From Pseudomonadales bacterium (GTDB taxonomy: Bacteria; Pseudomonadota; Gammaproteobacteria; Pseudomonadales; UBA7434), in contig JABDNS010000120.1 of assembly GCA_013043705.1 (NCBI GenBank), positions 1 to 54,226 on the forward strand: 54,226 bases of DNA, in the 5' to 3' direction. Below the pieces are notes generated by a model that did no database searches, was not told where the DNA came from, and saw only the letters and a program-made list of their open reading frames with translations. Shown here piece by piece: positions 8,072 through 44,130 of this stretch. Every line of letters begins with the position of its first letter. Position 1 is the stretch's first letter. Position numbers and translations under genes: made by a program.

Positions 8072-11000
8072 TTAACTACTTTCATCGTCTGCTTCAGGCT
8101 CTTCACCTTCAGCTGCAGATGATTTGTCAATGATCGCCTCTAGCGATTCGCCATCGCCTTCATCGTCGCCAAGGTTATTCAGCACCGGCAATGGATCGAT
8201 GAAGCGCCACATGGGCATCGCCGACATCACACTACCGAGAACCGCTCCGCTACGCGCCAACCAGGCCACGTAGCCTGCAGACATACCAGCTGAAACTGCG
8301 AAGGTACTGCCGATAACGGGCGCGCTCTGCAATGCGTTTTCAACAATGTTCTCGCGCATCTTGTCTACCGCATCAACAAAGCCGTTGAACTGTACCAGCG
8401 TCAGTGGATCGCTAAACGGCGTATAGGTATTCTGTAAACGTACCAACTCAACGTTCAATGCGGTTTGTTCAACGCTCTTAAATTCATTATCGATATCAAG
8501 ATACTGTGCCGCCTCGATGCCCTGTTCAGAATCCGCTGCAAAATCGGCGTCAATTCCATTGCCTGAATCTTCATCTTTAATAGAAACCGAATCATCGTCT
8601 GAAAACCCGTCCTCGTAAGAATCGGTAAACTCACCTTCGGGTTCTGCAGCAACTTCCGGCTGTTCACTATTGTCTTCTACTTCCGTTTCGCCACCTGTTT
8701 CAGGCGCTGGCTCGACTTCAGGTTTTATCTCCGGCTTTGGAGGCTCGGGCTCGATAACCACCGGCGCAAAAACAGCAACTTTATTACTTGCTACCGACTC
8801 ATCCTGGCCTGCGTCATCGGTGTAACTGACCACTAGCGTAATAAACGAATTGATGTCTGCTTTTGCAATGGTATAGGTTGCCGAAGTTTCACCAACAATA
8901 TCTACACCGTTGCGCTGCCACTGGTAATTCAGTGCGCCCATGCCATCGTCGTCGGCAATGCTAATGGTTGCAGACAGCACGTCACCAGCTCCAGGGTTGG
9001 TACTGGATAGAGCAACCTTACCGGTTGGTGCATCGTTGGTATTGCCCACGGTTATGCGGAACGTATCGGTGGCCGGTGTTGAGCCAGCCTGGCCGTCGTC
9101 GGCGGTGAGTTCCACATCAATAAAGCCGACATCGCCGTTCAAAGGTGTGCCGCTGAAGGTGCGGGTCGCTGGATCGAAGTTCAGCCAGGCAGGCAACGCG
9201 CCGCCGCCACTCAACGTGGCCGAGTAAGCCAGGCTGTCGCCGGTATCAACATCACCAAAGGTATTGGCGTTGAACGTAAAGCTGAACTTCGCGTCTTCGC
9301 TGGCCGCTTGGTCGGCTATGGCGTTATCCAGCGTTGGATTATCGTTGCTGTTGGCAACGCTTATACGAAATGTGTCGGCTGCAGGTGTACCGCCATTGCC
9401 GTCATCGGCGCTGACTGCCACATCGATAAAGCCGACATCGTCGTTCAAGGGTGTTCCGCTGAACGTACGCGTAGCGGTATCAAACGACAGCCAGCCCGGC
9501 AGTGCGCCGCCACCGGCCAGCGTGGCCGAGTAGCTTAGCGTATCGCCCGTGTCTTCATCACTGAATGTATTGGCCGGCACGACGAAGCTGAATGCGCTGT
9601 CCTCGGTTGCCGGCTGGTCAGGAATAGGGTTCGCTACCAATGGATCGTCGTTGGCATCGCTAATACTGATCCCAAACCTGTCATCAGCTGTGCCGCCAGC
9701 GCCATCATCTGCGACAACTTCGATATCAATATCGCCCACGTCAACCTGCAGCGGCGTGCCGCTAAAGGTACGTGTCGCCGCATCAAACGATAGCCAGCCC
9801 GGTAACGGATCACCATTTGCTAACGTTGCCGTATAGCTTAGTGCCTGCCCTTCAAAGTCACCGAAGGTATCGCTGGCGAAGGTGAAACTAAACGCGCTGT
9901 CTTCGGTGGCAGCCTGGTCTGGTATCGGGTTGTCTACCGTAGGGTCATCGTTACGGTGATCGATGGTAAGGCGGAATGTATCGACCGCCGGCGAACCACC
10001 TTCACCGTCATCGGCTTTGACTTCTATATCGATAGTGCCAATCGCATCATGCCCTGGCTCTGCACTGGAGAAGGTTCGCGTGGCCGGATCAAAGTTGAGC
10101 CAGGTTGGCAGCGAACCGCCGCCAGCGAGCCGTGCGCTGTAAGTCAGTTCATCGGCATCTGCGTCTGCAAAAGTATTGGCCGCAAAGGTAAAGCTGAAAG
10201 CGTCATGCGCAAAACCGAGCTGGTCGGCGATCGGGTTGGGCACCGTCGGATTATCGTTGCTGTTGCCCACGGTAATGCGGAATACATCGCTGGCCGGCGT
10301 TGAACCGGTCTGGCTGTCGTCCGCAGTCACTTCCACATCAATAAAGCCGACATCGCCGTTCAGCGGTGTGCCGCTAAAGGTGCGCGTTGCTGCATCGAAG
10401 TTCAGCCAGGTTGGCAGCGCCGCGCCGCCACTCAATGTAGCCGAGTAAGTCAGGGTATCGCCATCGGCATCGCCAAAGCTGTTGGCGTTAAACGTAAAGC
10501 TGAATGCGGTATCTTCAATCGCGGACTGGTCAGCGATTGCGTTTTCGACCGTTGGGTTATCAGGTTGCGGAGTGACAAGAATATGTACCACGCCGCCGGT
10601 TTGTAGAGCACCACCGCTACCGGAGTTACCGTTGTCATTGACAAAGACGCCAAGCTGGGCGGGGCCAAAATAGTTTTGGTCGACCTTGTAGCCCAAACCA
10701 TCGAGTGCCGTGTTTAGCGAGGCAACACTGCCCGTCATGGTTATAGTTGATGTACCGACGCCCGAAATGCTGGACAAGCCGGAGACATCACCCGGCGTCA
10801 GCGTGCCGCGATTGGCCGTGAGCTGAATCGTCAGCGCACCAGAAGTATTCTGCGCTACGTCTACATCATCGACATCAATGGCATTACCATTGGCTGCGCT
10901 GAATACTAGCGTGCCGTCCTCTGGAACGCTTTGGTGCGTAATTTGCGCAAAATTGCTTAGATCCTGCCCTGCGTTGAGTGAACCGGGGGAATCAATCGCT

Positions 11001-33191: not shown

Positions 33192-36100
33192 TTACGCTCC
33201 TTCGGTGGAATCCTGCGCGCCCATACCGGCTGCCGCTTGCTCGCCTTTCGCGACTCGCTGATCTCGCTTTGCCTGCCATGCCGCATATTTTTCGCGCCCC
33301 GCCACCGGCAGCGCCAACATGGCGGGCGTTGCAATTAGCGTGAGTATGGTTGCAAAAGACAGGCCGAATACAATAGCCTGCGATAGCGGCTCCCACATCA
33401 TTGACATCGAACCGCTGGCGGTCACGCTACGGTGAACCAGGTTGACAGACAAGCCGCAAGCCAGCGGCAACAATCCAAATACCGTTGTCAGTGTTGTAAG
33501 CAACACCGGGCGCAAGCGCTGCGCGGAAGCGCGCACAATGACTTCGCGCTGGTTCAATTCCGGGTGTCGGTCGCGGACATGGTTGAAGGTATCGATCAAT
33601 ACAATATTATTGTTCACCACAATGCCTGCCAGCGCCACCACCCCCACGCCAGTGAGTACCGCACTAAATGCATTGCCGGTAATTATTAAACCCAGCAGCA
33701 CTCCCGCAGTTGACATAACCACGGCAAGCAAAATCAACGTACTCTGGTAGAAACTATTGAACTGTGTAACCAGCAACACAAACATCAGCATCAGCGACAA
33801 CAAAAAAGCCAGCTGCACAAAGGCAATAGACTTGCTCTGCTCTTCATTCGCGCCCCTGAAAATAATCTCGATGGCTGGGTCAAAGGTCTGTTGATCGATC
33901 CATTCCTGTATTTCACGCAACTTGGCGTCGGCAAAATAACCCTCTTCCACCTCGGCACGCACGCGCTCTACCGGCACGCCGTTAGTCCGACCAGCAGTAT
34001 CGACACCCTGTGCTGGCCGCATACTCACGAAGTTGGAAATTGGCACCAGCCCCTGGTTGGTGTTAATTCGCAAGCGCTCCAACGCTTTTATACCGCGCTC
34101 GTGCCGGGGGAAGCGCACGCGTATATCCACAGAATCCTCTGCGCCAGCCGGTCGATATTCATCGACCTTCACACCGTTCGTTACCAGCTGCACTGCCACG
34201 CCCGCGGCCACTACGTCGGCGCCATAAATAGCTGCTTGCACACGGTCGACCTGCAAGCGCCATTCAATCGACGGCAGTGCCAGCGTATCGTCGATATCAA
34301 CTAGCCCCGGCAAGCTCTGCATGTACTCGCTTAACCTTGCCAGGGCCGGCTCCAGCAACGCACGATCGCGCGAACGCATCTCTATTTGGATGGACTTGCC
34401 AACTGGCGGCCCGCCTTCAAAGGGGAATACGTCAACCTGAATGCCTGGCATTGATTCGGTGCGCCTGCGTATTTCGCGCATGACTTCGAAACCGCCAATA
34501 TCTCGTTGCTGCTCATGTAGTAACTCTATAAAAAATGAGCCGATGCGGTCTGAAGATCCTGTATCCGTAAAAGAATCCTGTGCCGTCTGGACCCCCGCAG
34601 ATAAGGTTTGCGTATTCATCGCGCGCAAACCATCAACGTCGATAATGCGGCCTTCTACCTCTTTCACCAATTCATTGACTTCGCTGGCCGAATAATTTCC
34701 GCGCGCCCTAACCGATACCTGCAAGTACTGTGGCTCGGCTTCGGAGAAGAAAATCATGCCAGCACCGAACTTATCATAAGACACGAATATACCTGCCAGC
34801 AGGCCAAAAATAATCAATAGTGTTCGAATCGGGCGTGCGGTCACGCGGCCAAGAAAGCGCGCATAACGACCGGTAAAGGTTTTCAGCGAAGCAGGGTCTC
34901 CTGTTTCGAGCACGTGCATTTGCACCGCTTCCTCACGGTGCGCGCGAGGTTTGCCAAACAGCGTACCAAGCACCGGGCCAAACAATAGTGCGTAGAACAA
35001 CGATCCCACCAATACCGTAAATACGGTTATCGGCAAATAACTCATAAACTGGCCGGATACGCCGGGCCAAAACATCAGCGGCAAAAAAGCCGCCAGTGTT
35101 GTTGCAGTAGACGCTACAACCGGCCAGAACATTCTTTTCACCGCCGCTGCGTAGGCTTTGCGGTGATCCATACCATCGGCCATCTGCCTATCGGCATATT
35201 CGGTTACCACAATCGCGCCATCGATTAGCATGCCCAAACCAAGCAACATGCCAAACATCACCATAAAGTTGAAGGTATAACCGAGCAGGTAAATAATGAT
35301 GACCGAAAACAGCAAGGATACCGGTATACCAAGCCCAACGATTAAACCGCTACGAACACCCATTACCGCAACCACAAGCACCATAACCAACGCCAGCGCG
35401 GTAACGATATTGCCTTGTAGCTCCGAGACCTGCTCGCGGCTAAACTCTGCCTGGTTGTGCGAGATAACAAGGTCGATACCTGCGGGCACCCGCGCCCGCG
35501 CCGCGTCAACAATGGCCACTACTTCATCTGCGGTACTGACAATATTGCCGTCGGCTTTTTTCTTTACCGCAATAGTTATACTGTTGCGGCCATTGAACCT
35601 GGAATAAGCAGTGCGATCCTTGAAGGTGCGCTGCACAGTTGCAATATCGCCCAGCGTTATTACCGCATCGCCCTTTTGTACAATTGGCAATTCCAGTACG
35701 TCGCTAGCCTCTTCGACTAAAGAGGGCACCTTCACTGCAAATCGACCCAGGCCAGTATCGATGCTTCCGGCGGGGATCAGGCGGTTGTTGCGTTGCAGCG
35801 TGTTGATCAGCTGCTCGCTGGTAATACGGTAAGCCTCTAACGCTTCGGGATCTATAATGACCTCGAGCAACTCTTCCCGATGCCCTTGCAAATCGGCAGA
35901 TAACACCGAAGGAATGGTTTCTATTTCGTCGCGAAGCGCCAAGGCTGCCTGGTAAACGCTGCGCTCATCGACATTTTCGCCAAGTAAATTAACCTGGATC
36001 ATCGGAAAATTATCGATGCGGATTTCTTTAATGAAGGGCTCTTCAGCGTCGGAGGGCAATTCTGCTTTTGCGCGGTCGACTGCTTCACGTAGATCGAACA

Positions 36101-36416
36101 GGGCTTCGTTGAGACCTTGCTCTATTTCGAATTCGACGAATGTTGTGCCTATACCCTCGGCCGCCAACGAGTTGATTTCTGCAACGCCTTCAATTTTGCG
36201 AATTTCCAACTCCATCGGTTCGATAAGCAATCGCTCGGCATCTTCGGGCGAAATGCCTTCGTGCACCATGCCAACATAAAAGAACGGCAAGTCGACGTTG
36301 GGTTCGCCTGCAATGGGAATCGCGTTGCGCGCAAAAACGCCACAAAAAATTACCATAAACATCAGCAGCATGGTGGTACGCGTGCGACTGATCGCATTGT
36401 CGATAAATTTAATCAC
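33192..36416 (-). CDS. Efflux RND transporter permease (AcrB/HAE1-type)
   Basis: KFIDNAISRTRTTMLLMFMVIFCGVFARNAIPI; AYRITSEQLINTLQRNN; GMLLGLGMLIDGAIVVTEYADRQMADG; GTG start 36416 just after the adaptor stop. Confidence 0.95.
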   Translation of the reverse strand: MIKFIDNAISRTRTTMLLMFMVIFCGVFARNAIPIAGEPNVDLPFFYVGMVHEGISPEDAERLLIEPMELEIRKIEGVAEINSLAAEGIGTTFVEFEIEQGLNEALFDLREAVDRAKAELPSDAEEPFIKEIRIDNFPMIQVNLLGENVDERSVYQAALALRDEIETIPSVLSADLQGHREELLEVIIDPEALEAYRITSEQLINTLQRNNRLIPAGSIDTGLGRFAVKVPSLVEEASDVLELPIVQKGDAVITLGDIATVQRTFKDRTAYSRFNGRNSITIAVKKKADGNIVSTADEVVAIVDAARARVPAGIDLVISHNQAEFSREQVSELQGNIVTALALVMVLVVAVMGVRSGLIVGLGIPVSLLFSVIIIYLLGYTFNFMVMFGMLLGLGMLIDGAIVVTEYADRQMADGMDHRKAYAAAVKRMFWPVVASTATTLAAFLPLMFWPGVSGQFMSYLPITVFTVLVGSLFYALLFGPVLGTLFGKPRAHREEAVQMHVLETGDPASLKTFTGRYARFLGRVTARPIRTLLIIFGLLAGIFVSYDKFGAGMIFFSEAEPQYLQVSVRARGNYSASEVNELVKEVEGRIIDVDGLRAMNTQTLSAGVQTAQDSFTDTGSSDRIGSFFIELLHEQQRDIGGFEVMREIRRRTESMPGIQVDVFPFEGGPPVGKSIQIEMRSRDRALLEPALARLSEYMQSLPGLVDIDDTLALPSIEWRLQVDRVQAAIYGADVVAAGVAVQLVTNGVKVDEYRPAGAEDSVDIRVRFPRHERGIKALERLRINTNQGLVPISNFVSMRPAQGVDTAGRTNGVPVERVRAEVEEGYFADAKLREIQEWIDQQTFDPAIEIIFRGANEEQSKSIAFVQLAFLLSLMLMFVLLVTQFNSFYQSTLILLAVVMSTAGVLLGLIITGNAFSAVLTGVGVVALAGIVVNNNIVLIDTFNHVRDRHPELNQREVIVRASAQRLRPVLLTTLTTVFGLLPLACGLSVNLVHRSVTASGSMSMMWEPLSQAIVFGLSFATILTLIATPAMLALPVAGREKYAAWQAKRDQRVAKGEQAAAGMGAQDSTEGA

Positions 36417-36421
36417 TGCTG

Positions 36422-37531
36422 TTAATCGCTCAATATCCCAAGCGCCGATGCTTCCTGTAAAACAGGCGCCACATTTTGCCCGGCCAGTACAGATTCCTGG
36501 CCTACGGTAATCAACCTGACTCGCTGCGGCAGCCCGGTGACCCACACACCTTGCTCGGTGTCTTCCAGCAGTGAAATGGGATGAAACTCCACTATGTTGT
36601 TGTCATCAACGACTCGCAAACCTACTTCGCCATTGTCATTCAGCGTAAACAAGGCCGGCGATACCAAATGCGCCATAACTTGATCGAGTTTGACACTCAG
36701 CCGTGCAGTTTGGCCCGACTTTAGAGAGCGATCGGCATTCGCAACCGTTACCTCTATAGGAAACGTGCGGGTAACCGGATCACTCTGGCTGGCAACAAAA
36801 GTAACCACGCCTTGCAACGATCGGCCCGCTACTGTTTTGCCGGTGACCGTAGCGCCGACCGGCAGGAAGCCAACATCACTTTCAGAAATATTCGCAGTCA
36901 CTAACATTGGGTCGAGGTCGATCAACGTCACACAAGCAGTACCAACGCTGGCATAGTCCCCTACGTGCATATGCAGTTTGTCGACAACGCCGGCAAATGG
37001 CGCTCGCACACGCGTATTTTGCAAATTAATTTGCTCTCGCTTTAACAACGCCCGCGCACTTTCAAGCCGGGCTTCGGCCGCTGCGATCGCCGTTTTAGAC
37101 TGCAAGCCCTTTGCCTGCAACTTGCGCGTACCCTCGTATTCGATCTCGTACTGGCGCAGCTGTGCTTGCGCCTGCACGACCGCCGCGTTGCGATCATCTG
37201 TTGCCAATTCACAAAGTAAAGTACCTTTCTTGACGAAGTCTCCCCTTTCTACAGGCCGGGCAACAACTGCGCCGGCCACTTGGGTCTTGACGTCAACCTG
37301 GCGCTTGCTTTGGGTTTTGCCGCGCAATAAAAGCTGCCTTACTCGCGGTTGCGAGTCGATGATGCGGACGCGTACCGAGGCGGGCTGCGGTTGATTCTGC
37401 GCTTGCTCAGCATTCTGGACAACAATAGTCCTGCTTTCAGATTCATTGCCATCACCAAAGAAGGCACCGCTTAACAGCCAAAGTGAAACAGCAATAGCGA
37501 TTGCTAGTGCTGTAAGAAAGTTTCGCTGCAT
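36422..37531 (-). CDS. Efflux RND transporter periplasmic adaptor
   Basis: 369 aa, lipoyl/coiled-coil/beta-barrel pattern (RVRAPFAGVVDKLHMHVGDYASVGTACVTLIDLDPM); upstream of RND permease. Confidence 0.93.
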   Translation of the reverse strand: MQRNFLTALAIAIAVSLWLLSGAFFGDGNESESRTIVVQNAEQAQNQPQPASVRVRIIDSQPRVRQLLLRGKTQSKRQVDVKTQVAGAVVARPVERGDFVKKGTLLCELATDDRNAAVVQAQAQLRQYEIEYEGTRKLQAKGLQSKTAIAAAEARLESARALLKREQINLQNTRVRAPFAGVVDKLHMHVGDYASVGTACVTLIDLDPMLVTANISESDVGFLPVGATVTGKTVAGRSLQGVVTFVASQSDPVTRTFPIEVTVANADRSLKSGQTARLSVKLDQVMAHLVSPALFTLNDNGEVGLRVVDDNNIVEFHPISLLEDTEQGVWVTGLPQRVRLITVGQESVLAGQNVAPVLQEASALGILSD

Positions 37532-38570: not shown

Positions 38571-38711
38571 TGATGAACTCACTATGATGTAGTCGCTATG
38601 TAGTCGTTTGCCAGCGCCCAGAAAGAACCGGGCCAACCACTCAACGCGGTTGGCCCGGCAGCTATCTTAACTGATTAAAAGTAGTGAGGGGTTAGAAACG
38701 CCGTTAATGGG

Positions 38712-38966
38712 CTAATCCTGGTAGTCCTCGACCTTGCGGCGCGCATCGTTAGCCGCCTCTTCCACATCCTCACCCACTTCCTCAGCGGTATCACGCAAGT
38801 TATCTATTGGGTCATCATTATTCTCGCAGGCCACAACCAGCGGAAGCGCTAGCAGTGCCGCTAACGCCATCGTTACCCGGCGCGATGACCTGGCCCGAGG
38901 CGTCTTTGTGCAAGCCGCCGCATTAATGGTATTGGTTGGGGCCGCAGCAATTTTCTTAATAAGCAT
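38712..38966 (-). CDS. Small putative lipoprotein with acidic helical C-terminus
   Basis: 84 aa, lipobox-like ALPLVVAC then ENNDDPIDNLRDTAEEVGEDVEEAANDARRKVEDYQD; alternative ATG at 38870. Confidence 0.7.
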   Translation of the reverse strand: MLIKKIAAAPTNTINAAACTKTPRARSSRRVTMALAALLALPLVVACENNDDPIDNLRDTAEEVGEDVEEAANDARRKVEDYQD

Positions 38967-39027
38967 AAAGTGCCTCCTATCGTAGTGCTATGTAGTTAAA
39001 GGGTTTGAATTTAAGCACTTAAAGTAT

Positions 39028-39044
39028 TGCAGCAAGCGTGCCAA
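39028..39044 (-). promoter_or_regulatory. Candidate sigma-54 (-24/-12) promoter for the small lipoprotein gene
   Basis: Reverse strand TTGGCACGCTTGCTGCA: GG-N10-GC spacing exact; about 62 nt upstream of ATG 38966. Confidence 0.7.
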
Positions 39045-39238
39045 CTGCTAAACGCCACCCTAAACCGGGTAATAGCGCGCTGAGTCGCTGCGATCACGCG
39101 CATTCGTAGACCCGGCGGCAGGTAAATTCTACAAAGCCTGCAAATTTTACCGGGCGGTCGACAAGCATTGCGCCCTGATCCTGAACAGTTTTTACCCACC
39201 CAGGCGCCGAAATCCCGCAGGATAGCGGTTCTGGAAAG

Positions 39239-39255
39239 TTGGCATAGCGGTTGCA
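39239..39255 (+). promoter_or_regulatory. Candidate sigma-54 (-24/-12) promoter for DUF1328/CsbD genes
   Basis: TTGGCATAGCGGTTGCA: GG-N10-GC spacing exact; 71 nt upstream of DUF1328 ATG 39327. Confidence 0.75.
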
Positions 39256-39326
39256 ATATTGATCATGCACCACGAGTACAAAGCAAAAATACGTTTTTAA
39301 CTTTAGAAAAGAAAAGGAGGTACACC

Positions 39327-39491
39327 ATGTTTCATTGGGCACTGATGTTTTTAATCGTTGCAATTATCGCCGGTGTACTCGGCTTACCAAGTGTTGCGGT
39401 AATAGCTTCGGAAGTCTCATGGATTTTCTTTGTCGTCGGTTTAATCCTGTCTGTGCTGCTGTTTGTGATGGGTAGGCGCCCTCCCCTTTAG
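39327..39491 (+). CDS. DUF1328 small membrane protein (YtjA family)
   Basis: MFHWALMFLIVAIIAGVLGLPSVAVIASEVSWIFFVVGLILSVLLFVMGRRPPL; AGGAGG RBS; start trimmed from ORF 39168. Confidence 0.92.
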   Translation: MFHWALMFLIVAIIAGVLGLPSVAVIASEVSWIFFVVGLILSVLLFVMGRRPPL

Positions 39492-39594: not shown

Positions 39595-39798
39595 ATGAAC
39601 AACGATATTCTTAAAGGCAAATGGAAACAGTTGAAAGGCGAAGCCAAACAGCGCTGGAGTGAACTTACCGACGACGACCTGGATCGCATCGACGGTAAGA
39701 AAGAAGAGCTGGTCGGTGCTATCCAGGAAAAGTACGGCAAAACCAAGAAAGAGGCTGAGCAGGAGCTGGAAGAGTTTCGTGAAAAACTCGATAGCTAA
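39595..39798 (+). CDS. CsbD family stress protein
   Basis: MNNDILKGKWKQLKGEAKQRWSELTDDDLDRIDGKKEELVGAIQEKYGKTKKEAEQELEEF. Confidence 0.96.
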   Translation: MNNDILKGKWKQLKGEAKQRWSELTDDDLDRIDGKKEELVGAIQEKYGKTKKEAEQELEEFREKLDS

Positions 39799-39844: not shown

Positions 39845-40801
39845 ATGAAGGACACTCGCATGGCACAGGCAGAAACCAGCACCCAGGTGGCGACCGAACC
39901 AACGGCGGTGGCAGCGCCACAGAGCATCGCAGATGTTGCGGACTCGCTAAATATGACTTTCCTCGGAATCTGGGACGGGTTTATTAAACACACACCCTAC
40001 CTTATCGCGGGGCTGATGGTTCTACTGCTTACCTGGATTGCGGTTGCCATTTTTCGTCGCGTAGCAGGCAGGGCGCTTTCGCGTAGCGGGCTGCGCTCTT
40101 CCTTGCGCGAGTTGCTGCTAAGGCTCGTTGCCATTGCAATATGGTTCGCCGGTTTATTGTTGGCTGCGATGTTCTGGTTTCCCGGCCTCACACCCACTAC
40201 TGCGCTGGGCGGCCTGGGCTTGCTTTCGGTTGCGGTGGGCTTTGCGTTCCAGGATATTTTCGAAAACTTCTTCGCCGGCATTCTGTTGCTGTGGCGCTTT
40301 CCGTTTGAAAACGGCGATTATATAGAGTGCGAAGGCATTATGGGCGAGGTGGAAGACGTTACCGTGCGTATGACCAAGATTCGCCAGACGACTGGCGAAC
40401 TGGTACTGGTGCCCAACTCGGTGCTATTTAAAAACCCGGTGAACGTGATGACCAACAGAGGCGCCAGGCGCGTCGATATCGTTGCCGGCGTCTCCTACGA
40501 CAGCGATGTAGAGCAAGCCACAGAAATCATTGAGAAAGCCGTGAAAGCTTGCAATTCAGTACTGGGCGACAGGCCAATACAGGTTTTCCCTCAAGCCTTC
40601 GGAGCCAGCAGTATCGATATTGAAGTTGCCTGGTGGACAGAGGCCAAACCGGTAGACATTCGCGCCTCACGCGCAGAAGTGGTTTGCGCGGTGAAACGCG
40701 CACTCGATGAAGCGGGTATTGAAATACCATTCCCGTATCGCACGCTCACTTTTAAGGAGCCGCTGCCCACTAAGCGCGTTGACAACAATGAGGCCGCGTA
40801 G
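39845..40801 (+). CDS. MscS-family mechanosensitive ion channel
   Basis: GGLGLLSVAVGFAFQDIFENFFAGILLLWRFPFENGDYIECEGIMGEVEDVTVRMTKIRQTTGELVLVPNSVLFKNPVNVMTNRG; start may be ATG 39860. Confidence 0.95.
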   Translation: MKDTRMAQAETSTQVATEPTAVAAPQSIADVADSLNMTFLGIWDGFIKHTPYLIAGLMVLLLTWIAVAIFRRVAGRALSRSGLRSSLRELLLRLVAIAIWFAGLLLAAMFWFPGLTPTTALGGLGLLSVAVGFAFQDIFENFFAGILLLWRFPFENGDYIECEGIMGEVEDVTVRMTKIRQTTGELVLVPNSVLFKNPVNVMTNRGARRVDIVAGVSYDSDVEQATEIIEKAVKACNSVLGDRPIQVFPQAFGASSIDIEVAWWTEAKPVDIRASRAEVVCAVKRALDEAGIEIPFPYRTLTFKEPLPTKRVDNNEAA

Positions 40802-40803
40802 CG

Positions 40804-41103
40804 ATGCATGAAGAAACAGAGAGGATAGCAGGCGATGCGTTCAGCATCGCCTTGCCGGGCAAGCTTGATAACAGAATTTTTGACGCCGATGGTAATACAG
40901 CTGGCAGAATTGAAAAGTTGCTAATTGATGTTAACAACGGTTTAATTCGCTATACCGAAGTAAAGCTTTTGGAACACGGCAGCGTGCGCCTGCCCTGGGC
41001 CACCTTGCTGGCTAAAAAAAGTGGCGGTTATACGCTGTCGCCGATTGGCAAGGCATTAATCGACAGTGCGCGCTCCAGAAAACAAAGTAAAAGTAAATCA
41101 TGA
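40804..41103 (+). CDS. PRC-barrel-like domain protein
   Basis: IFDADGNTAGRIEKLLIDVNNGLIRYTEVKLLEHGSVRLPWATLLAKKSGGYTL; 99 aa, 2 nt after the MscS gene. Confidence 0.7.
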   Translation: MHEETERIAGDAFSIALPGKLDNRIFDADGNTAGRIEKLLIDVNNGLIRYTEVKLLEHGSVRLPWATLLAKKSGGYTLSPIGKALIDSARSRKQSKSKS

Positions 41104-42450
41104 CTCGTACTCCTTGAGCCGGTTGTACAGCGTCTTCAGTGATATACCCAATTTTTCTGCCGCAGCTGTCTTGTTGCCTTCGGTTGCCTCGAGCGTGGCA
41201 TAAATTAACTTGCGCTCGGCATCCTCGAGAGAGGCGCCGACTGAAACTGTAAGATAGTCGCCATCGTCCACATCTGCAGCGGCCTGGGCTTCTGGAAAAT
41301 GCTCAGCCTCTATTTTGGAAGACGCCATGATGTGCGCGCGCTGAACCGCACTTCTTAGCTCCCGCACGTTACCAGGCCAGGGGTATTTTTGGATGGCTTC
41401 GATGGCCGCAGGCGCAAGCGCCTTTTCAACGCCATGCTCAAGGTTTAGCTCGTGCAGAAAATGCAGCGCGAGGCCAAGCGCATCATCGCCTCGGTCACGC
41501 AACGGCGGTATGTTCAACGGAAATTGGGCAATGCGAAAATACAGGTCTTCGCGCAACAGGCCTTCGGCAATGGCCTCCTGCGGGTCGCGGTTGGTGGCTG
41601 CAACGATCCGCGCCGTCATCTCCAACTCTTTTTCTCCACCCACGCGCCTGAAGCGTCGCGACTCCAGTACGCGCAACAACTTAACCTGCAAATCCATGTC
41701 CATCTCGCCAATTTCATCGAGCAGCAAAGTACCTCCGTCAGCGCGCTCGAAAAACCCGGCATGCTGGTTCTGCGCACCGCTAAAAGCACCTTTTTCGTGG
41801 CCGAACAATTCACTTTCAGCGAGCTCGGCGGGTATGGCGCCGCAGTTCATTGCAACGAATGGCCCCTCTACAGCGGATAATTCATGAATAGTTTGCGCAG
41901 CTAGCTCCTTGCCGGTACCGCTCTCTCCCACCAATAACACCGACGCATTGCTGGGCGCAACTTTGCGCAACATCCGGTATAACTTGCGCATTTTTTTTGA
42001 ACTGCCACGCAGTAATCCAAACTGGTCTACAACGTGGTCGTGCGCATGTCGCTCAGCGCTGGCGGCAGCGCTAAGTCTCTCCTCGCGAATATCTTGCAAT
42101 AGGTTGGCGATGAACGGTTGATCCAGCGGTTTACAGAAAAAGTAACTGGCATTGAGCTTAATACCACGACGCGCTCGAACCGGGTCATCGCAATGGTGCA
42201 TCAGTGCCACGTCCGCATCTTCCAGGCTCTGGTGCTGCAGCAATTCAAGGCCTTCACCATCGGGAAGATCCAACGCAATAAATGCTGCGAGGAGTTTGTC
42301 GCCAACGTTATCAAGAAATCTATGCGCGTCAGCCAGGGTGCTGCACAACATAGGATTAAGCCCGACGTCGCGTAGAATATTTTCCAACACTTGCGAATGC
42401 GCGGCGTCTTCATCGACTACTAGCGAGCAGTATTCAGGGGCGACCGTCAT
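41098..42450 (-). CDS. Sigma-54-dependent response regulator (NtrC-type) with atypical receiver
   Basis: Walker A GESGTGKELAAQTIH, GAFSGA loop, DGGTLLLDEIGEMD, NVREL, Fis-type HTH (NKTAAAEKLGISLKTLYNRLKEYE). Confidence 0.95.
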   Translation of the reverse strand: MTVAPEYCSLVVDEDAAHSQVLENILRDVGLNPMLCSTLADAHRFLDNVGDKLLAAFIALDLPDGEGLELLQHQSLEDADVALMHHCDDPVRARRGIKLNASYFFCKPLDQPFIANLLQDIREERLSAAASAERHAHDHVVDQFGLLRGSSKKMRKLYRMLRKVAPSNASVLLVGESGTGKELAAQTIHELSAVEGPFVAMNCGAIPAELAESELFGHEKGAFSGAQNQHAGFFERADGGTLLLDEIGEMDMDLQVKLLRVLESRRFRRVGGEKELEMTARIVAATNRDPQEAIAEGLLREDLYFRIAQFPLNIPPLRDRGDDALGLALHFLHELNLEHGVEKALAPAAIEAIQKYPWPGNVRELRSAVQRAHIMASSKIEAEHFPEAQAAADVDDGDYLTVSVGASLEDAERKLIYATLEATEGNKTAAAEKLGISLKTLYNRLKEYES

Positions 42451-42492: not shown

Positions 42493-44130
42493 TTAAGAAA
42501 CATTATTTTTAGTAAACGCACCTGCTTTCAGGCGTTTTTGATAATCCAGCAATTCCTTTTTGATAATTGGCGCCAGCAAATACAAACCAAAGATATTGGG
42601 CAGCGCGATAACAAAAACCAACGCGTCGGAAAATGAAAGAATAGCGCCCAACTGCACCGAACTACCCAATGCCGCAAACGAACAAAAAACCAGCTTAAAA
42701 GCGTTTTCTGCCAGCGCCGAATCACCTACTAGATAGGTCCAACCCTTTAAGCCATAGTACGACCAGGCAATTAATGTAGAGAAAGCGAACAGCACCGCCA
42801 CAATCGACAACGGTACCGCCGACCATCCCAGGGTTCCACTAAAGGCTCGCGATGTAAGCTCCACACCCTGGACGCCCGCGCCCGCCATTTCCGGCGTATA
42901 GACTGTGGTCAGGATAACCAATGCAGTTAACGTACAAATAACTACCGTATCGATAAACGGTTCCATCAAGCCAACATAGCCTTCAGTAATTGGCTCGCTG
43001 GTGCGCACCGCTGAATGCGCCACCGCCGCCGAACCAATACCGGCCTCATTCGAAAAAACCGCTCGCTGGAAGCCAAGAATCATTACTCCCAGCATGCCAC
43101 CGCCAATTGCTTGCGGGTTAAAAGCCTCGCTAAAAATAGCCTGTAATGCACCGGGCAACCTGTCGGCATTCATGGTGATTACCGTCACTGCGCCTATTAC
43201 GTAAGCCAGCGCCATAAATGGCACCAGTTTGCTGGTAACGCGGGCTATGCTTTTGATCCCGCCAATAATCACCACAGCAACCAGGCTGGCAAGCACAAGG
43301 CCAAACAGCCAACCCAATTCAGCAAACCTGCTTTGCTCGCCACCGGTAATAAACACGAACTGCTCGAAGGCCTGGTTCGACTGGAACATATTGCCAATAC
43401 CAAAGCAGCCAATAACAATCGACAAAGCATAAAAAGCGCCCAGCGGCCTGGCCGCCCAACTCATGTTGCGTAACCGCAGCGCCGCCTCCAGGTAATACAT
43501 TGGCCCGCCAGATACTGACCCATCGGGATTGACCTTGCGAAATTTAACGCCCGCCACGCACTCTGCAAACTTGGTCGACATACTCAGGAAGCCGGCAACG
43601 ATCATCCAGAACGTCGCGCCTGGACCTCCAACGGAAATAACCACAGCGACACCGCCGATGTTGCCAATTCCCACGGTTCCCGACACAGCGGTCGACAAAG
43701 CCTGGAAGTGGCTAACTTCACCCTCTGTTCCAGCTTTGGCGTAATCACCGCGCAACAAGTGGAAGGCGTGGCGAAAGCCGCTAAGGCTTAGAAAATTAAA
43801 ATAAAAAGTAAACACCACAGCGGCGCCAGCTAGCCAAAGCACAATCCATGGCAAGTCGGCGCCAAATAAATTTATCTTATAAAAAACGAAGTTGGAAACG
43901 GCTTCAGCAATTGGCTCGACCCAGGCGTTGATACGCGCATCAAGGCCAGTGGCGGCCTCTGTAGCGCCAGCTGGCTGGGACCAGGCAGAGACGACCACAA
44001 TCAACAACAACGCAAGCAGGCAGGTCTGCGCTGACCCGGCCAGACGTATTGAATTCAGCGACTCGTAAGCCGTTTGGGCAGGGCGAACTATGGTACAGTT
44101 ATTTGCCTTTTGCTTAGAATACATCATCAA
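42493..44130 (-). CDS. Sodium:alanine symporter (AGCS) family protein
   Basis: SGTVGIGNIGGVAVVISVGGPGATFWMIVAGFLSMSTKFAECVAGVKFR; FSNEAGIGSAAVAHSAV; 545 aa. Confidence 0.94.
   Translation of the reverse strand: MMMYSKQKANNCTIVRPAQTAYESLNSIRLAGSAQTCLLALLLIVVVSAWSQPAGATEAATGLDARINAWVEPIAEAVSNFVFYKINLFGADLPWIVLWLAGAAVVFTFYFNFLSLSGFRHAFHLLRGDYAKAGTEGEVSHFQALSTAVSGTVGIGNIGGVAVVISVGGPGATFWMIVAGFLSMSTKFAECVAGVKFRKVNPDGSVSGGPMYYLEAALRLRNMSWAARPLGAFYALSIVIGCFGIGNMFQSNQAFEQFVFITGGEQSRFAELGWLFGLVLASLVAVVIIGGIKSIARVTSKLVPFMALAYVIGAVTVITMNADRLPGALQAIFSEAFNPQAIGGGMLGVMILGFQRAVFSNEAGIGSAAVAHSAVRTSEPITEGYVGLMEPFIDTVVICTLTALVILTTVYTPEMAGAGVQGVELTSRAFSGTLGWSAVPLSIVAVLFAFSTLIAWSYYGLKGWTYLVGDSALAENAFKLVFCSFAALGSSVQLGAILSFSDALVFVIALPNIFGLYLLAPIIKKELLDYQKRLKAGAFTKNNVS

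Follow-up and report, generated by a model that had tools for sequence, protein, structure and literature searches.

Proteins of the DUF1328 and CsbD families are widespread stress proteins, usually belonging to sigma-S or sigma-B regulons. In Salmonella, YtjA (DUF1328) and YjbJ (CsbD) are listed among the sigma-S-controlled small proteins (PMC5437024). Envelope-stress systems that depend on sigma-54, such as PspF and ZraR, are also known (PMC4987338), with targets and listed sites other than those described below, and the action of sigma-54 on envelope functions is the general theme of "Sigma-54 controls the bacterial exterior" by Francke et al. 2011 (PMC3162934). The text of that paper makes no mention of CsbD, mechanosensitive or osmotic, and the gene set described below appears to be absent from it.

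We analyzed a stretch of 54,226 nucleotides (the window) from a member of the Pseudomonadales, in which DUF1328 and CsbD genes lie beside predicted sigma-54 promoters and a sigma-54 activator gene. As in the enteric sigma-S (RpoS) set, DUF1328 and CsbD would jointly be under a stress-type alternative sigma factor (PMC5437024), but the promoters of the window are of the sigma-54 type and come with a dedicated activator. With ZraR and the zraP-zraSR locus of Salmonella the window shares a receiver-AAA-HTH activator, divergent sigma-54 promoters and an envelope-stress role, which for the window is presumed. ZraR, however, owes its activation to the kinase ZraS and has a periplasmic chaperone as its target (PMC4987338), whereas the receiver of the window activator is without the Asp and the gene set is another one. 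PspF of the phage-shock system resembles the window activator as a sigma-54 activator that is not phosphorylated (probable for the window) and that has a membrane-stress output (presumed for the window). It differs in having no regulatory domain, in being held by PspA and in its listed site, TAGTGTAATTCGCTAACT, which is unlike the window's (PMC4987338). The window activator still has a receiver, albeit a degenerate one, and the adjoining genes that we examined included none recognisable as PspA-like.

We file the island as a variant on known sigma-54 regulons, distinguished by its activator family, its DNA motif and its genes. The initial annotation had regarded the arrangement as not standard for DUF1328 and CsbD genes. 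This holds for the open-licence literature, in which we found no description of DUF1328/CsbD-type gene families combined with sigma-54/RpoN or with one another, and within which the arrangement is provisionally undescribed; it is not peculiar to the window, as it recurs across the order.

Promoters and genes of the window

The features of the island, from left to right, are:

38627-38659, minus strand: terminator-like hairpin 3' of the lipoprotein gene
38712-38966, minus strand: small lipoprotein, 84 aa, with lipobox LPLVVAC and an acidic C-terminal half
39044-39028, minus strand: predicted sigma-54 promoter (-24/-12) of the lipoprotein gene, TTGGCACGCTTGCTGCA, 18.1 bits, rank 1 in 54 kb
39121-39133: predicted activator site 1, GGTAAATTCTACA, two mismatches to TGTAA-N3-TTACA, 11.0 bits
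39139-39151: predicted activator site 2, TGCAAATTTTACC, two mismatches to TGTAA-N3-TTACA, 9.2 bits
39239-39255, plus strand: predicted sigma-54 promoter (-24/-12) of the DUF1328-CsbD-MscS-PRC unit, TTGGCATAGCGGTTGCA, 16.6 bits, rank 2 in 54 kb
39327-39491, plus strand: DUF1328 (YtjA-like) small membrane protein, 54 aa (PF07043, E 6e-9)
39595-39798, plus strand: CsbD (YjbJ-like) protein, 67 aa (PF05532, E 6e-17)
39845-40801, plus strand: MscS-type mechanosensitive channel, 318 aa (PF00924 and PF21082)
40804-41103, plus strand: PRC-barrel protein, 99 aa (PF05239, 20.1 bits, slightly below the Pfam cut-off of 21.2)
41098-42450, minus strand: sigma-54 activator, 450 aa, with a degenerate receiver, AAA+ domain and Fis-type HTH

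The two promoter elements had been put forward on the strength of their GG-N10-GC spacing and of a distance of about 60-72 nt to the start codons. Both positions and the spacing proved exact: TTGGCATAGCGGTTGCA ends 71 nt before the DUF1328 ATG (39327), with a predicted transcription start at ~39266, and TTGGCACGCTTGCTGCA ends 61 nt before the lipoprotein ATG (38966), with a predicted start at ~39017. Both lie in the 360-bp region between the two genes, both have the GG-N10-GC core in a TGGCAY and TTGCW-like context, and each ATG is preceded by a strong ribosome-binding site (AAGGAGGT for DUF1328, GGAGG for the lipoprotein). Since loose counting of the sigma-54 consensus in the window stayed at chance level (119 matches against 128 expected, non-significant), we used a weight matrix instead, which is our own approximation of the published consensus, calibrated on glnA. 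The third-best score in the window was 12.8 bits, against 18.1 and 16.6 bits for the two promoters, and 20 shuffled windows yielded a mean of 0.1 matches of at least 16.6 bits and none of at least 18.1 bits. The glnA site of the same genome scores 17.0 bits, which places the promoters of the window at a comparable level, and rpoN is encoded in the source genome (PF04552, E 6e-68).

It could be argued that transcription of DUF1328 and the lipoprotein gene depends chiefly on a sigma-70 or sigma-S-type factor, the -24/-12 matches being due to chance or of minor importance, insofar as the Salmonella orthologues are sigma-S controlled (PMC5437024) and a 9/12 sigma-70-like match overlaps 39239-39266. 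However, sigma-70-like matches are at chance level (4 against 3.2 expected), and the two sigma-54 sites outscore all others in the 54 kb and have counterparts at orthologues. We therefore consider this explanation very improbable.

Pfam bore out the gene set of DUF1328, CsbD, MscS and PRC that the initial annotation had given, the PRC match lying just below the cut-off, and no terminator was predicted in the gaps among the four genes. PRC genes are likewise present in the islands of two other genomes (G015 and G089), and the MscS protein shares 52% identity with that of the G015 island. A Pfam scan with E up to 10 assigned the lipoprotein to no family, and no curated family matched it. Its membership in Lpp/OprI was rejected, the score being 17.4 bits against the NCBIfam NF040598 cut-off of 43 bits, and the guess that it is an entericidin relative found no backing in these scans. 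Similar lipoproteins are found beside an activator or a sigma-54 site in G015, G018, G108, G135, G192 and G326, and lipoprotein genes of relatives likewise have sigma-54 sites.

The base composition of the island is that of its surroundings and thus gives no evidence of recent transfer. To the left of the island (33192-37531) lie genes for a large multi-pass protein (33192-36545) and an HlyD-type membrane-fusion protein, resembling an RND efflux pair.

The linked activator and its clade

The sigma-54 activator gene that had been reported at the far end of the cluster is indeed present, its product matching PF00158 (AAA+ sigma-54 interaction domain, E 2e-65) and PF02954 (Fis-type HTH, E 2e-15). 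The receiver scores 22.6 bits, below the Pfam cut-off of 30.2, and the alignment places Ala59 where the phospho-acceptor Asp is expected. Because this aspartate has been lost, the trigger is probably something other than ordinary phosphorylation, such as protein contact, a ligand or the activator's own level. The receivers of the nearest clade mates (G015, G089, G148 and G192) are below the cut-off or give no match, and control by something other than phosphorylation is consequently likely, as judged from these sequences, for the branch to which the window activator belongs. Clear receivers are found in the clade activators of G040, G108 and G128, and that of G108 adjoins a CHASE3 histidine kinase.

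The sigma-54 interaction loop reads GAFSGA in the window activator and GSFSGA in G015, the other clade activators having mostly GAFTGA or GSFTGA; GAFSGA can be read as a conservative change from GAFTGA. The window activator scores far below the cut-offs of the NCBIfam equivalogs NtrC, AtoC, ZraR, GlrR and PspF, and an activator scan of named genomes returned distant NtrC-type proteins only, at no more than 44% identity, with no close orthologue. No sigma-54 site was found to drive the activator gene. A Na+/alanine symporter gene (42493-44130) on the same strand ends 43 bp before it, and the two may be co-transcribed.

We built a tree of 45 activators, in which a branch with 100/100 support set the 15 members of the island group apart from all others. 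The congeners' best matches fall outside this clade, as do the activators that neighbour DUF1328 genes in family f22. At four loci of that family (L151, L156, L185 and L186), DUF1328 genes lie near NtrC-type activators of another clade, which, judging by position, we take to be perhaps AlgB-like. One genome (G014) has two island-clade activators in tandem (L115:7785-9089 and 10027-10938), the second ORF being without a receiver.

Recurrence of the island and a shared palindrome

Roughly one in four of the genomes sampled from the order had DUF1328 and CsbD. Same-genus genomes had no DUF1328 or CsbD among the matches listed, and the symporter neighbourhoods of four congeners held no island gene, indicating that the island is patchy. 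A search of ~12 kb around DUF1328 revealed a window-like activator in nine other genomes (G015, G040, G069, G089, G108, G128, G135, G148 and G192). The G015 activator gene is apparently split by contig ends, residues 4-412 being on contig C8 and the last 40 on C13, which also holds PRC, lipoprotein, DUF1328, MscS and CsbD genes. DUF1328, CsbD, small lipoprotein, MscS, PRC, BON (OsmY-like), OmpA and DUF883 genes recur beside clade activators, with holin-like, MgtC, AI-2E transporter, Pmp3, DUF4112, DUF2254 and phospholipase-D-type genes as further recurrent neighbours, and several of these genes bear sigma-54 sites of their own. Among the remaining neighbours are a BLUF blue-light sensor gene directly 3' of the island activator of G148 (L164:8469-8891) and, between the activator and lipoprotein genes of G192, a gene for a diacylglycerol-kinase and dual-specificity phosphatase protein (L165:3778-5487).

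A sense sigma-54 site of at least 12 bits, a cut that was set after the first 31 loci had been seen, was present at -200 to -40 of 10 of the 56 DUF1328 genes of the order; there was one antisense site, and 0.06 were expected by shuffling. Of the 26 later loci, L158 (11.4), L165 (15.6), L166 (17.0) and L170 (14.1) have sense sites. The same scan returned sites at 22/30 glnA genes, the positive control, and at 3/30 CsbD and 1/30 BON genes. Most DUF1328, CsbD and BON genes are thus without a sigma-54 site, and sigma-54 control is limited to a subset. Direct sites were found at 5/9 DUF1328 genes near a clade activator compared with 6/47 others (p 0.01), and in G108 and G148 the site instead precedes a co-oriented OmpA or BON gene just 5' of DUF1328. 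Upstream of DUF1328-CsbD in G169 (L148:6285) is a sigma-54 site in which every specified consensus base is matched; the neighbouring activator is outside the island clade, and this may possibly be a case of independent recruitment.

Motif discovery was applied to the 200-bp stretches 5' of 27 such sigma-54 promoters, some of which overlap owing to divergence. Among all 5-mer gapped palindromes with spacers of 0-12, TGTAA-N3-TTACA ranked top, with 13 sites of at most one mismatch upstream of the -24 element against 0.27 expected. In the window, the two predicted sites are 18 bp apart and lie ~100 bp upstream of both -24 elements, and nowhere else in the 54 kb do two sites come within 30 bp of each other; their scores come from a matrix built without them. 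None of 3000 shuffles of the region yielded two such sites. Reading the stretch between the promoters as one long inverted repeat was non-significant (57/300 shuffles were as good); the two-site reading is significant.

Our genome-wide statistics are based on pattern searches, in which the palindrome was sought 65-95 bp 5' of TGGCA-N8-GCW, with a reversed control. Across 394 genomes of the order, palindrome and sigma-54 element occurred together at 13 places, and the reversed control gave none. Four of these places came from the discovery set (G108 twice, G135 C11 and G014). Of the nine others, five precede a lipoprotein gene (G326), DUF883-type operons (G215 and G308) or phospholipase-D-type genes (G135 and G200), the DUF883 label in G215 being weak (E 0.12) and leaning on operon shape as much as on score. 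The G238 place is a good site without a clear gene, and three are weak sites, apparently in or against other genes. At the level of the class, two places in 370 genomes equalled the two in the reversed control and are attributable to chance; the order and class samples differed with a Fisher p of 0.02.

These data also bear on the possibility that both sigma-54 promoters are real but driven by another activator of the genome, the neighbouring one serving a different target. The source genome encodes further activators of the same type (7 matches), the neighbour occupies the far edge of the cluster and has the GAFSGA loop, and in G169 a perfect sigma-54 site at DUF1328-CsbD stands beside a non-clade activator. 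On the other hand, clade activators travel with the gene set across families, and the palindrome is found at promoters in clade-bearing genomes as well as between both promoters of the window. We find it unlikely that another activator is responsible.

Proposed regulation and its implications

According to the explanation that we favor, with a probability of roughly 80%, the region forms the centre of a sigma-54 regulon devoted to envelope protection, with a linked activator, tandem palindromes and two divergent promoters. The activator would bind the two tandem palindromes (39121-39151), on the simplest reading a shared enhancer, midway between the promoters, and would open both promoters using ATP, one leading to the lipoprotein gene and the other to the DUF1328-CsbD-MscS-PRC unit. 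Binding of the window activator to the TGTAA-N3-TTACA motif is presumed, and the trigger suggested above likewise forms part of this proposal. A gene set like that of the enteric sigma-S small stress proteins would here be under sigma-54. What the sequences show of this proposal are the elements, genes, domains, conservation, activator clade and motif. The local sigma-54 regulon that had been suggested earlier is thereby supported by promoters at the glnA level, sites at orthologous genes, an activator clade tied to the set and a shared palindrome at the right distance; the missing phospho-acceptor Asp and the activator-site motif are additions to it. Against the proposal speak the position of the activator gene at the far cluster end, close behind the symporter gene and with no sigma-54 site driving it, the GAFSGA loop, the two mismatches in each window palindrome, the many DUF1328, CsbD and BON genes of the order that have no sigma-54 site, and the approximate nature of the weight matrix.

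The envelope or osmotic stress role should be interpreted with some caution, since it is deduced solely from gene content. Sigma-54 control could be real and serve a stationary-phase, nutrient or surface-colonisation programme, an alternative that bears solely on what the genes are for and leaves the mechanism untouched. That the activator gene follows a Na+/alanine symporter gene in the same orientation, and that a BLUF light-sensor gene adjoins the activator in G148, would be in line with such a purpose, whereas the MscS, OmpA, BON, Pmp3, MgtC, PRC and lipoprotein genes of the islands encode envelope proteins or envelope-associated ones. We consider this alternative plausible, if less likely than not.

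Beyond the window, the chances are about even that the dedicated regulon proposed here belongs to an order-wide envelope-stress programme, in which sigma-54 governs the small-protein set that is under sigma-S in enteric bacteria, by way of a single activator family with a DNA motif of its own; in one branch of this family the receiver phospho-site would be lost and the trigger a different one. A dedicated activator and a defined DNA site provide a handle on when DUF1328 and CsbD are needed and on their partner genes, and the activator branch without a phosphorylation site poses a testable question as to how it is switched on.
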